Translations under genes and position numbers: made by a program
Notes under the pieces: generated by a model
The model's database searches: none
What the model was told of the DNA's origin: nothing
The model's input: the letters and a program-made list of their open reading frames with translations, nothing else
NCBI GenBank assembly: GCA_016868195.1
Contig: VGHQ01000001.1
Location: forward strand, 62,001 to 126,000
Length of the DNA stretch: 64,000 nt
Source of the DNA: Betaproteobacteria bacterium
GTDB lineage: Bacteria; Pseudomonadota; Gammaproteobacteria; Burkholderiales; Methylophilaceae
Direction: 5' to 3'
In this document: positions 3,289-62,047 of the stretch, piece by piece
Numbering within the stretch: position 1 is the first letter of the stretch
Layout: the number at the start of each line of letters is the position of its first letter

Positions 3289-3356
3289 CTTTTGAAATAA
3301 AACTAAGACCAAATTTTATCATTAATTATTCTTAAATAGACTTAAGCACTAATAAG

Positions 3357-3430
3357 TGGAGGCGCGAGCCAGAATCGAACTGGCGTCTACGGCTTTGCAG
3401 GCCGCTGCATAACCATTTTGCTATCGCGCC
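3357..3430 (-). tRNA. tRNA-Cys (GCA)
   Basis: Reverse complement GGCGCGATAGCAAAATGGTTATGCAGCGGCCTGCAAAGCCGTAGACGCCAGTTCGATTCTGGCTCGCGCCTCCA. Confidence 0.93.
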
Positions 3431-3484
3431 ACATCAATATCACCAAAATTAAAAAGGGAAGACGATGCTTCCCCGATTTTGATT

Positions 3485-3560
3485 TGGAGCGGGAAACGAG
3501 TCTCGAACTCGCGACCTCAACCTTGGCAAGGTTGCGCTCTACCAACTGAGCTATTCCCGC
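3485..3560 (-). tRNA. tRNA-Gly (GCC)
   Basis: Reverse complement GCGGGAATAGCTCAGTTGGTAGAGCGCAACCTTGCCAAGGTTGAGGTCGCGAGTTCGAGACTCGTTTCCCGCTCCA. Confidence 0.94.
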
Positions 3561-3628
3561 GTAAAGAAGCGAGTATTTTAGCGTTTTTTGGGCTAGTGTC
3601 AATTTACAGTCCACCGCATTCTTGAGAC

Positions 3629-53654: not shown

Positions 53655-53689
53655 ATTCAGTTCTCCAAGTGTTTGATGAGTATTATTCT

Positions 53690-53757
53690 ATCTTAATATT
53701 CAGTTAATTGTTTAAATCAACTTATCTTAATATTCGATTAATTGCTTAAACCAACTT
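53690..53757. repeat. Two-copy 34-bp direct tandem repeat
   Basis: atcttaatattcagttaattgtttaaatcaactt (53690-53723) followed immediately by atcttaatattcgattaattgcttaaaccaactt (53724-53757); 30/34 identical. Confidence 0.92.
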
Positions 53758-54433
53758 ATATCTTTTTAAGTTTTCCCAGGGTTAATTTATATTGAAACTT
53801 TAATTTTGATGCAAGCTGATTATCATGTGTTACCAAGACTAGAGTTGAACGATTCTCTTTTGTTAAATCAAGTAATAAATCAAATACAAAATGCGCTGTT
53901 TTTCCATCTAAATTTCCTGTAGGTTCATCTGCAAGAATGCATTTTGGCTTAGTGATTAAAGACCTAGCGATTGCAACTCTCTGTCTTTCACCTCCAGATA
54001 ATTCATAAGGCTTATGAGTTAGTCTTTTGTTAAGTCCTATTTTTTTTAAAAGCGCTTCAGCTTCTTTAAAAGCAAGCTTGTATGAATATCTTCTAATTAA
54101 TAATGGTATTGCAACATTTTCTATCGCATTAAAATCACTAAGCAAGTGATGAAATTGATAAATAAAACCTAGATGCGCATTTCTCAAAACACCCAGATCA
54201 TCCTGAGTTAAGGATGCAATATCCTGGTCTAAAATTTTTATCTGGCCAGAGGAGGCTTTTTCAAGCCCAGCCATAAGATGAAGTAGTGTGCTTTTACCAG
54301 AGCCAGAAACTCCAACTATAGCTGAATGATCCCCTTCATTAATGTTTAGATTTAACTTATTAATAATTTCTTCATCTAGACCAGGAAATGTCTTCGATAA
54401 ATTTTTACAAGTTATAAGTAATTTTTTAGTCAT
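53756..54433 (-). CDS. lolD: Lipoprotein-releasing ABC transporter ATP-binding protein
   Basis: VSGSGKSTLLHLMAGLEKASSGQI, ELSGGERQRVAIARSL, next to lolC/E. Confidence 0.93.
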   Translation of the reverse strand: MTKKLLITCKNLSKTFPGLDEEIINKLNLNINEGDHSAIVGVSGSGKSTLLHLMAGLEKASSGQIKILDQDIASLTQDDLGVLRNAHLGFIYQFHHLLSDFNAIENVAIPLLIRRYSYKLAFKEAEALLKKIGLNKRLTHKPYELSGGERQRVAIARSLITKPKCILADEPTGNLDGKTAHFVFDLLLDLTKENRSTLVLVTHDNQLASKLKFQYKLTLGKLKKI

Positions 54434-59486: not shown

Positions 59487-60760
59487 GTATTTTAATTAAA
59501 AATGGTCGTGTGATTGACCCAAAAAATAATATTGATGCAGATTTAGATATCTTGATTGCGGATAGGAAAATTGCAGAATTAAATAAAAATTTAGATCCAA
59601 AAAAAGCAACACAGATAATTGATGCCTCAAAAAAAATAGTTATGCCAGGCATTATAGATCTTCAATTGAATTTAAGAGAGCCTGGCAATCAATACAAATC
59701 GACATTAGAAAGTGAAATGAAAGCGGCAAATGCTGGTGGAATTACTGGCATGGTATGCCCCCCAGATACCACCCCTATTCTAGATGAGCCTGGTCTTGTA
59801 AAAATGCTAAAGAACAAATCTGAAGCTCTCAAATTAGGGAATGTTTACCCTCTTGGTGCGCTCACTCAAAAATTAAATGGAAAACTATTAACTGAAATAA
59901 ATGATTTATATGAATCAGGTTGCATTGGATTTTCTCAAGCAGAAAAACCTATCCAAGATACAGAGGTTCTATATAGATCATTTCAATATCTCTCAACGTT
60001 TAATCTCAAAGCTTTTTTAAGGGCTGAAGATGCCTATTTATCAGAAAAAGGCATTATAAATGCAGGTGAAATTTCGACTCGACTTGGACTAAAGGGCATT
60101 CAAAGTATCAGTGAAACCACCGCTATTAATAAAATATTAGAAATAGCGGACTTAACTAAAACTAAAGTTCATTTAAATAAAATATCAACAGCTGAAGGAT
60201 TAAATTTAATAAAAATAGCTAAAAAAAATGGTATCAATGTAACTTGCGATGTTTCTATCCACCAAATTTTTCTTACAGATAATGATATTGGCTTCTTTAA
60301 CACAAACTGTTTTTTAAAGCCTCCTTTAAGGAAAGAATTTGATCGAGTAAAAATTATTGAGTCAATTATTGATGGTACAATTGATGCAATATGCTCAGAT
60401 CATTCTCCGGTAAATGAAGATAATAAATTAAAACCTTTCGCAGAATCGGAATATGGTGCATCAAGCGCAGAGCTTCTCATGCCACTTATATTCAAGCTTT
60501 CTGATGAAAATAAAATAGATTTAAGTTTGCTGATTAACAAAATAACTTATCAGCCCTCAAACATTCTAGAAATTAATAAAGGAAATCTCTCAATAAATTC
60601 GGGAGCTGATATTTGTATATTTGATCCTGAACATCCATGGGAAATAAATTCAAAAACTTTGATTAGTGAAGGTAAAAATACACCATTTTTGAACCAAAAT
60701 TTAACCGGAAAAGTATCAAGTACTATTTTTAACGGCAATATTGTCTTTAATGGTCACTAG
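59483..60760 (+). CDS. Dihydroorotase-like protein, probably non-catalytic (PyrX/PyrC' type)
   Basis: Dihydroorotase fold motifs (MPGIID...[25 protein letters not shown]) but DxHxH replaced by DLQLN. Confidence 0.85.
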
Positions 60761-60832
60761 CAATTTTAAAAAGCCAAATAAAAAGAGTAAATTTATCGTT
60801 CAAATTTATATCAAAATAATTACAATAAAAAC

Positions 60833-60861
60833 TTGACTAGCTTTAAAAACAAGTCCATATT
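60833..60861 (+). promoter_or_regulatory. Candidate sigma70-type promoter upstream of the H1-like gene
   Basis: TTGACT (60833-60838), 17-bp spacer, CATATT (60856-60861). Confidence 0.45.
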
Positions 60862-60915
60862 TACACTTGCACTTGCAGTAAAAAAAATTTTTTTTATTCT
60901 TTGGAGCCTTTTTAA

Positions 60916-61227
60916 ATGATCAAAAAATTAATTTCAGCAATTTTTGGTTCTTCTAAACCAGCAGAAACTAATAGTACGCTTCCAGCAACAATTTCAAGAC
61001 CCTCAACATCGGTTAGCGCTAAGAAAAAACCAGCAGCTAAGAAAAAACCAGCAGCTAAAAGAAAACCAGCAGCTAAGAAAAAACCAGCAGCTAAAAGAAA
61101 ACCAGCAGCTAAGAAAAAACCAGCAGCTAAGAAAAAACCAGCAGCTAAGAAAAAACCAGCAGCTAAGAAAAAACCAGCAGCTAAGAAAAAACCAGCAGCT
61201 AAAAGAAAACCAGCAGCTAAGAAATAA
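60916..61227 (+). CDS. Histone H1-like Lys/Ala/Pro-rich repeat protein
   Basis: MIKKLISAIFGSSKPAETNS... followed by 11 KKKPAA/KRKPAA hexapeptides; SD-like ggag at 60902-60905. Confidence 0.88.
   Translation: MIKKLISAIFGSSKPAETNSTLPATISRPSTSVSAKKKPAAKKKPAAKRKPAAKKKPAAKRKPAAKKKPAAKKKPAAKKKPAAKKKPAAKKKPAAKRKPAAKK
61021..61218 (+). repeat. In-frame tandem repeat, 11 x 18 bp
   Basis: Two unit types: aagaaaaaaccagcagct (A) and aaaagaaaaccagcagct (B), in order AABABAAAAAB; 198 bp exactly. Confidence 0.97.
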
Positions 61228-61231
61228 TCTT

Positions 61232-61255
61232 AACGGGACTTTAGGTCCCGTTTTT
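61232..61255 (+). terminator. Intrinsic terminator of the H1-like gene
   Basis: aacgggac-ttta-ggtcccgtt followed by T-run. Confidence 0.88.
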
Positions 61256-61285
61256 ATTAGCAAGTTCTTTGTTGCTAAATACAAT

Positions 61286-61322
61286 AAAACCAAGCAAACT
61301 TCAATTTTGCTTGGTTTTTTTA
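61286..61322 (+). terminator. Second intrinsic terminator 5' of yggS
   Basis: aaaccaagcaaa...ttttgcttggttttttt stem-loop with T-run. Confidence 0.85.
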
Positions 61323-61330
61323 TTTAATTA

Positions 61331-62047
61331 ATGTCTTTAATCTCCCAAAATATCTCTCAAATTCATGATGGCATTCAAGAAGCTTCTGCTACTGATGCTT
61401 CCCCTGAAAAAATTACTTTAGTAGCCGTGAGCAAAGGTCAGAACTTTAATAAAATTATCGAGGCTTTTGATGTGGGCGTTTTGAATTTTGGGGAAAATTA
61501 CCTTCAAGAAGCGCTCGATAAAAAAAAGCAGCTAGAAAAATTTCCAATTCAATGGCATTTTTTGGGGCCAATTCAAAGCAATAAATGCAAACTTATTGCA
61601 GAAAATTTTAATTGGGTACATAGCGTTGATAGATTAAAAGTTATGAAATTGCTTAACGATAATAGGCCTTTAAACCTCCCTCCTTTAAATATTTGCATCC
61701 AAATTAATACCAGCGGAGAAAAAACTAAAAGTGGCATCCCTATTAAAGATGTAAAAGCACATTTATCAGAGTTAATTCAAGCACTCAAAGAACTTCCCAA
61801 GCTTAAACTAAGAGGTATTATGTCTATACCCTCTAATACAAAAGATACCAAACAAGTGATTGATGAATTTAAGGCTATGCATATACTTTATAGCGAACTC
61901 AAGAATGAAATTGCTACCATTGATACCCTGTCTATGGGAATGTCGAGTGACTTTAAACTAGCAATTGAATATGGTTCAAATCTTGTTAGAATTGGAACCG
62001 CTATTTTTGGAGCGCGTGCCGTAAAAACTCAAGGGGACGATAATTGA
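61331..62047 (+). CDS. YggS-family pyridoxal phosphate homeostasis protein
   Basis: LVAVSKGQ, FGENYLQEA, WHFLGPIQSNK, SMGMSSDFKLAIEYGSNLVRIGTAIFG. Confidence 0.95.
   Translation: MSLISQNISQIHDGIQEASATDASPEKITLVAVSKGQNFNKIIEAFDVGVLNFGENYLQEALDKKKQLEKFPIQWHFLGPIQSNKCKLIAENFNWVHSVDRLKVMKLLNDNRPLNLPPLNICIQINTSGEKTKSGIPIKDVKAHLSELIQALKELPKLKLRGIMSIPSNTKDTKQVIDEFKAMHILYSELKNEIATIDTLSMGMSSDFKLAIEYGSNLVRIGTAIFGARAVKTQGDDN

Follow-up and report, generated by a model that had tools for sequence, protein, structure and literature searches.

A small gene in the 64,000-nucleotide stretch of DNA analysed here (the window) encodes a short amphipathic helix followed by a polycationic tail of near-identical repeated units, and represents a lineage-specific family that, among the genomes sampled, is restricted to two streamlined pelagic genera of the Methylophilaceae. 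The original prediction had treated the gene as a retained oddity of one small genome; we find instead an orthologous family at a common locus in both genera, whose repeat array is hypervariable between close relatives. Genome streamlining in pelagic bacteria is generally considered to remove whatever is dispensable, yet the polycationic protein is kept in every well-assembled genome of Methylopumilus and the OM43-like bacteria that was examined, whilst larger relatives are without one at the locus. The family thus constitutes a simple, cultured and abundant system in which the function of H1-like tails in bacteria, and any importance of their length, can be studied, natural versions of 3 to 20 units already existing in related strains, and the array itself provides a fast strain-typing locus for pelagic Methylophilaceae.

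The closest named relative found in a genome scan is Ca. Methylopumilus universalis MMS-RIV-52, which has the order ribBA-ruvX-pyrR-pyrB-pyrC-[gene]-yggS-proC-mnmA in common with the window, and the window's organism belongs to Ca. Methylopumilus, Methylophilaceae. The source genome (G000) comprises 1.21 Mb in 24 contigs and is 92% complete. Direct reading of the sequence places the ATG of the gene at 60916 and its stop at 61225-61227, with the following parts:

60916 to 61227, forward strand: gene for the helix-plus-repeat-tail protein, 103 aa (ORF list, direct read, same-locus orthologs in two genera)
60916 to 60948, forward strand: N-terminal amphipathic helix MIKKLISAIFG, residues 1-11 (AlphaFold2 helix 2-11, cross-species conservation)
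60949 to 61020, forward strand: linker SSKPAETNSTLPATISRPSTSVSA, 24 aa in Methylopumilus
61021 to 61218, forward strand: array of 11 x 18 bp, (K[K/R]KPAA)11, units AABABAAAAAB (direct read, Tandem Repeats Finder)

The array fills codons 36-101, i.e. 198 bp or exactly 11 units, with only 35 residues ahead of it and AAG AAA TAA directly after it. Two unit types are present, type A being aagaaaaaaccagcagct (KKKPAA) and type B aaaagaaaaccagcagct (KRKPAA), and the description on which the original prediction was built, of eleven 18-bp units arranged AABABAAAAAB, is letter-perfect. Tandem Repeats Finder reports 61018-61224 with period 18 and a score of 372, against 114 for the runner-up in the 64 kb; a score of 114 was returned for an AT-rich 34-bp unit in 2.1 copies at 53689-53759. 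Given the codon frequencies of 51 long ORFs in the window, the probability that 11 independently encoded units would all share identical Pro-Ala-Ala codons is p ~1.6e-13, which implies that the array DNA was duplicated unit by unit, beyond mere bias in the protein. If the source genome was built from short reads, confidence in the exact count of 11 is lower than in the presence of the array, the interior of which is the break point of several related draft assemblies. Two overlapping ORFs, 60944-61327 on the forward strand and 61003-61293 on the reverse strand, were rejected as by-products of the repeat, which is open in several frames because it has no stops.

Within Methylopumilus the gene is present in every genome with an assembled locus, 11 of them including the N-terminus and three having the tail at a contig edge; the exceptions are G079, whose contig stops at a break upstream of yggS, and G123, which is 54% complete. 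One draft (G118) matches the gene twice, near the end of contig C8 and at the start of C3, probably as an assembly duplicate and not a paralog. A sister genus (g15; 1.2-1.4 Mb when complete), which from its size and affinity appears to be OM43-like, carries the protein between pyrB or pyrC and yggS-proC, so that the locus pyrB/pyrC - gene - yggS - proC is common to both genera. Its version consists of MLEKLINALLG, a short linker and then [KKKPAA]n, [KKPAA]n or KKKPVA variants, and helix and tail were found together in at least 22 of its genomes, with a match in all 14 of those of good quality. Profile searches at E <= 1e-3 in the order (399 genomes) and at E <= 1e-4 in the phylum (398 genomes) gave no full-length match outside the two genera, and weak matches elsewhere cover the Lys-rich part only or the first 25 positions only (in a 654-aa frame of G443). 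Scan matches from Rhodocyclaceae and Burkholderia were set aside, as they appear alike in Lys/Ala/Pro composition only. The viral contigs searched hold no relative of the protein, an NCBIfam scan gave no significant match, and Pfam returned no family at E <= 10, which is weak evidence since the HMMER bias filter can hide repeat proteins; no paper naming the protein was met in the literature searched (open-licence PubMed Central).

The same slot looks different in the other genera of the family. In 20 members of these, the position upstream of yggS, after pyrC, is usually occupied on the opposite strand by pilT, alone or together with pilU, as judged from the N-terminal sequences, and none of the 20 showed a small Lys-rich ORF upstream of yggS; in G003 and G037 pyrC almost directly abuts yggS. 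Planktonic Methylophilaceae are reported to have lost motility, whilst sediment strains possess flagella and type IV pili, and Methylopumilus and OM43 are the truly pelagic members, Ca. Methylosemipumilus turicensis having diverged earlier (PMC6794327). The simplest reading, we infer, is that the common ancestor of Methylopumilus and OM43 gained the gene once, at or close to the former pilT/pilU space. The absence of the gene from less-reduced relatives thus suggests that it was gained rather than kept, contrary to the idea of a very small genome "keeping" a length-variable tail.

Complete Methylopumilus arrays contain 8-14 units and those of the sister genus 3-20, and the number and order of units differ in nearly every genome compared. 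Thus G044 (AAAAAAArrBB) and G032 (AAAAAAArABBBB) have different arrays at 97.5% identity over 59 kb and 99.5% in the immediate flanks, as do G063 (ABAAvvABBBABB) and G054 (ABAABABABAB), the flanks of which are 98-99% identical. The expectation of recent expansion or contraction, with copy number variable between strains, is therefore borne out, since both count and A/B order change even at 97.5% regional identity; the relatives do not all share one count and order. Most fully assembled Methylopumilus arrays have A at the start and B at the end, an edge effect expected if slippage or unequal exchange homogenises the inner units, and G085 has KRK in its first full unit and mostly KKR inside. Indels within the array are whole codons and keep the frame. 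We accordingly picture an array that would lengthen and shorten by whole codons, via replication slippage or unequal recombination, with its inner units being homogenised in the process; the codon identity of the units is itself a sign of such concerted evolution. Methylopumilus isolate genomes derive from Illumina short reads, 2 x 250 bp or PE150 (PMC6794327, and PMC10872708, which describes about 90 genomes), and such reads could under-call counts in long runs of identical units, whilst order and types are harder to fake. In the complete genome G063, single-base homopolymer indels relative to G054 split pyrC and yggS, which flank the array. These are probably sequencing errors, and their homopolymer character suggests a long-read assembly, in which the array has 13 units.

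At the protein level, the N-terminal amphipathic helix, of the type M[IL]xK[LF] and followed by a Lys-Pro-Ala array, is the conserved element. AlphaFold2, run on a three-sequence alignment and of low overall confidence (mean pLDDT 65, pTM 0.15), places a helix at residues 2-11 (pLDDT about 73) and coil elsewhere. MIKKLISAIFG and MLEKLINALLG are identical at six of 11 positions, the remaining five being I/L, K/E, S/N, I/L and F/L, and five complete relatives show no difference in the opening 36 nt of the gene. The linker, by comparison, has 24 aa in Methylopumilus and about 3-12 aa, unalignable, in the sister genus; helix and linker thus appear, respectively, constrained and unconstrained across the two genera. 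The hydrophobic moment of the helix exceeds that of only about 95% of same-residue shuffles. The distinct, short and amphipathic N-terminus that had been proposed is accordingly supported, by the modelled helix 2-11 and its conservation in two genera, as is the H1/AlgP-like composition, at 38% K+R, 14% P and 25% A with a pI of 12; all measured members have a net charge of +15 to +47 and a pI of 10.7-12. So basic a protein, beginning with a segment akin to short cationic amphipathic peptides, might be secreted or act at the surface, in an antimicrobial or adhesin-like manner. We give this very little credence: inspection by eye shows neither a hydrophobic stretch of the signal-peptide kind nor a cleavage site, residue 3 is acidic in the sister genus (MLEKL), and the neighbours are pyrC and yggS, with export or immunity genes not adjacent.

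Each unit includes KPAA, or the variants RPAA or KPVA. In Methylopumilus the unit is 18 bp long, whereas in the sister genus it is often 15 bp and uses other synonymous codons; the unit peptide in both is nearly always Lys(2-3)-Pro-Ala/Val-Ala. Because the unit DNA differs between the genera and the peptide logic is preserved, selection must act on the protein. This bears on the alternative that the array acts as DNA, i.e. as iteron-like sites or as a recombination or slippage hotspot, with the protein incidental, a reading to which the exact 18-bp periodicity and the several frames left open by the stop-free repeat would lend themselves. It is nevertheless very improbable, given that the two genera differ in unit length and synonymous bases under a constant peptide logic, that indels comprise whole codons, and that helix, ribosome-binding site, promoter and terminators are conserved. 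Selection would instead maintain the helix, and keep the tail in frame and at its charge density, and leave the exact length free.

Our preferred reading, which by analogy with known systems we regard as having about an even chance of being correct, is that of a minimal AlgP/PhaF-like protein in which an attaching amphipathic helix carries a disordered nucleic-acid-binding tail, the whole acting as a nucleoid condenser or tether. The polycationic K(K/R)(K)PAA tail would bind nucleic acid by charge and without sequence specificity, DNA in the first place and possibly RNA; composition and precedent make such binding most likely, a C-terminal domain fragment of AlgP and KPAA-repeat peptides having been found to bind DNA in vitro (PMC9239181). 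The helix could anchor the protein to a hydrophobic partner, be this the inner membrane, the protein itself or another protein, and helix and tail together would then loosely condense or tether the nucleoid. We infer the attachment and tether role from this arrangement of parts; that a helix of 10 residues is short for stable membrane binding is a point against attachment. Tails in the sister genus go down to 3-4 units (proteins of 38-43 aa), so that strong condensation cannot be a matter of length. Three matches to PF00216 (the HU/IHF fold), presumably HU and both IHF subunits, are also found in most genomes of the genus. With these HU-fold proteins retained, there is no obvious need for a general packaging protein, and the helix-plus-tail protein would supplement, and not replace, the ordinary nucleoid proteins. 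Composition cannot tell RNA from DNA binding, and a disordered lysine tail might equally mark an RNA-binding protein, associated with ribosomes or mRNA and forming condensates in starved cells. This we consider possible but unlikely, in that the precedents for KPAA units concern DNA and polyphosphate (PMC9239181) and no RNA-binding fold is apparent in Pfam, NCBIfam or the AlphaFold2 model.

The likeness to AlgP (AlgR3) of Pseudomonas aeruginosa comprises a disordered Lys/Pro/Ala-rich tail of KPAA units and a repeat number that rearranges among clinical isolates (PMC9239181). AlgP is however longer, at 352 aa against about 38-121 aa here, and its N-terminal domain is helical and comprises 124 aa; that large domain is replaced by a single helix of about 10 residues, and the unit is a regular one of 5 or 6 residues. 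AlgP, the best-studied protein with a KPAA tail, localises to polyphosphate granules and spaces them (PMC9239181), and the present protein could do likewise, its tail binding polyphosphate and spacing granules or tethering them on the nucleoid. The polyphosphate kinase gene ppk1 does occur in most Methylopumilus genomes of good quality (8 of 9, the source genome among them); of the 14 good sister-genus genomes, only 4 have it, yet all 14 match the helix-plus-tail protein. Four single-contig complete genomes of the sister genus (G034, G046, G056, G080) keep the protein without ppk1, and Methylopumilus G072 (97% complete) has the tail and no ppk1 match. The absence of ppk1 from 10 of 14 good OM43-type genomes makes a role confined to polyphosphate granules unlikely, and weakens the idea of such a role as a general one.

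The part order is also that of PhaF, the Pseudomonas putida phasin, in which an N-terminal amphipathic helix precedes a lysine-rich DNA-binding tail (PMC3574117), and the protein might accordingly be a minimal phasin, with its helix on polyhydroxyalkanoate granules and its tail on DNA. This is scarcely credible, and a PHA-granule role is largely ruled out by the missing PHA synthase (PF07167, without a match in any of 16 genomes from the genus); moreover, PhaF has a long helix and a leucine zipper, whereas the protein described here has a far shorter helix of 10 residues, no zipper and no phasin-family match. Hc2 of Chlamydia and the BpH1/Hc2-like proteins of Bordetella and Burkholderia likewise gain and lose lysine-rich units and exist in many size variants (PMC2848022), but here the units have the form K(K/R)(K)PAA and nearly all contain Pro, the amphipathic helix is the conserved part, and there is no Pfam match. 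The C-terminal tail of TubY, a plasmid partition protein, is lysine-rich, binds DNA non-specifically and folds into an amphipathic helix on membranes (PMC7762940). It provides a precedent for the tether idea, although TubY is a tetrameric coiled-coil MerR-like regulator and the working principle alone is comparable. The proposed likeness to H1-like and AlgP-type proteins therefore stands as regards composition and variation in repeat length, whilst membership of the AlgP, PhaF phasin or Hc2 families fails on the structural features tested; the protein plausibly works like them.

The gene is accompanied by putative expression signals on both sides:

60833 to 60861, forward strand: putative sigma-70-type promoter, TTGACT-N17-CATATT (consensus scan)
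60880 to 60895, forward strand: A8T8 palindrome in the 5' leader, between promoter and ribosome-binding site (direct read, upstream alignment)
60903 to 60906, forward strand: GGAG ribosome-binding site, 9 nt 5' of the ATG (direct read, alignment)
61232 to 61252, forward strand: first intrinsic-terminator-like hairpin (conserved in Methylopumilus)
61286 to 61318, forward strand: second intrinsic-terminator-like hairpin, immediately 5' of yggS (scan, fold)

The consensus scan found five promoter sites against 1.4 expected in shuffles, and the putative promoter stretch is near-invariant among Methylopumilus species. The 90 bp 5' of the start show a mean identity of 93.8% with five complete relatives, which have 84-94% overall identity, and tie for second in conservation among 20 gene-upstream regions. 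All 11 aligned Methylopumilus upstream regions retain the A8T8 palindrome, with one base changed in G091; as a structured RNA the 5' leader folds no better than shuffles (z = 0.23). Downstream, the segment 61222-61330 has a fold z of -8.0, and a hairpin of the second type, AACC(A/G)(A/G)GC...GCTTGGTTTTTT, lies 3' of the gene in those OM43-type genomes that have sequence beyond the stop. With promoter, ribosome-binding site and double terminator all predicted and conserved, the gene would be transcribed independently.

Further observations were made on the flanking DNA. Arms reading ACTTG (60831-60835) and CAAGT (60850-60854) span the -35 region and spacer of the promoter, and possibly form an operator. 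Rfam gave only sub-threshold matches over 60700-61400, the best (RF00378 and RF04312, over the double-terminator region) being judged due to chance. Between the two terminator-like hairpins in 61232-61318 sits a third, TTAGCAA...TTGCTAA, and the region as a whole is 90-96% identical between species, compared with 78-92% for the adjoining yggS; it is possibly a 3'-derived small RNA. The window's most conserved stretch among the five relatives, at about 98-99.7%, lies elsewhere, at 3342-3574, and is perhaps an RNA gene.
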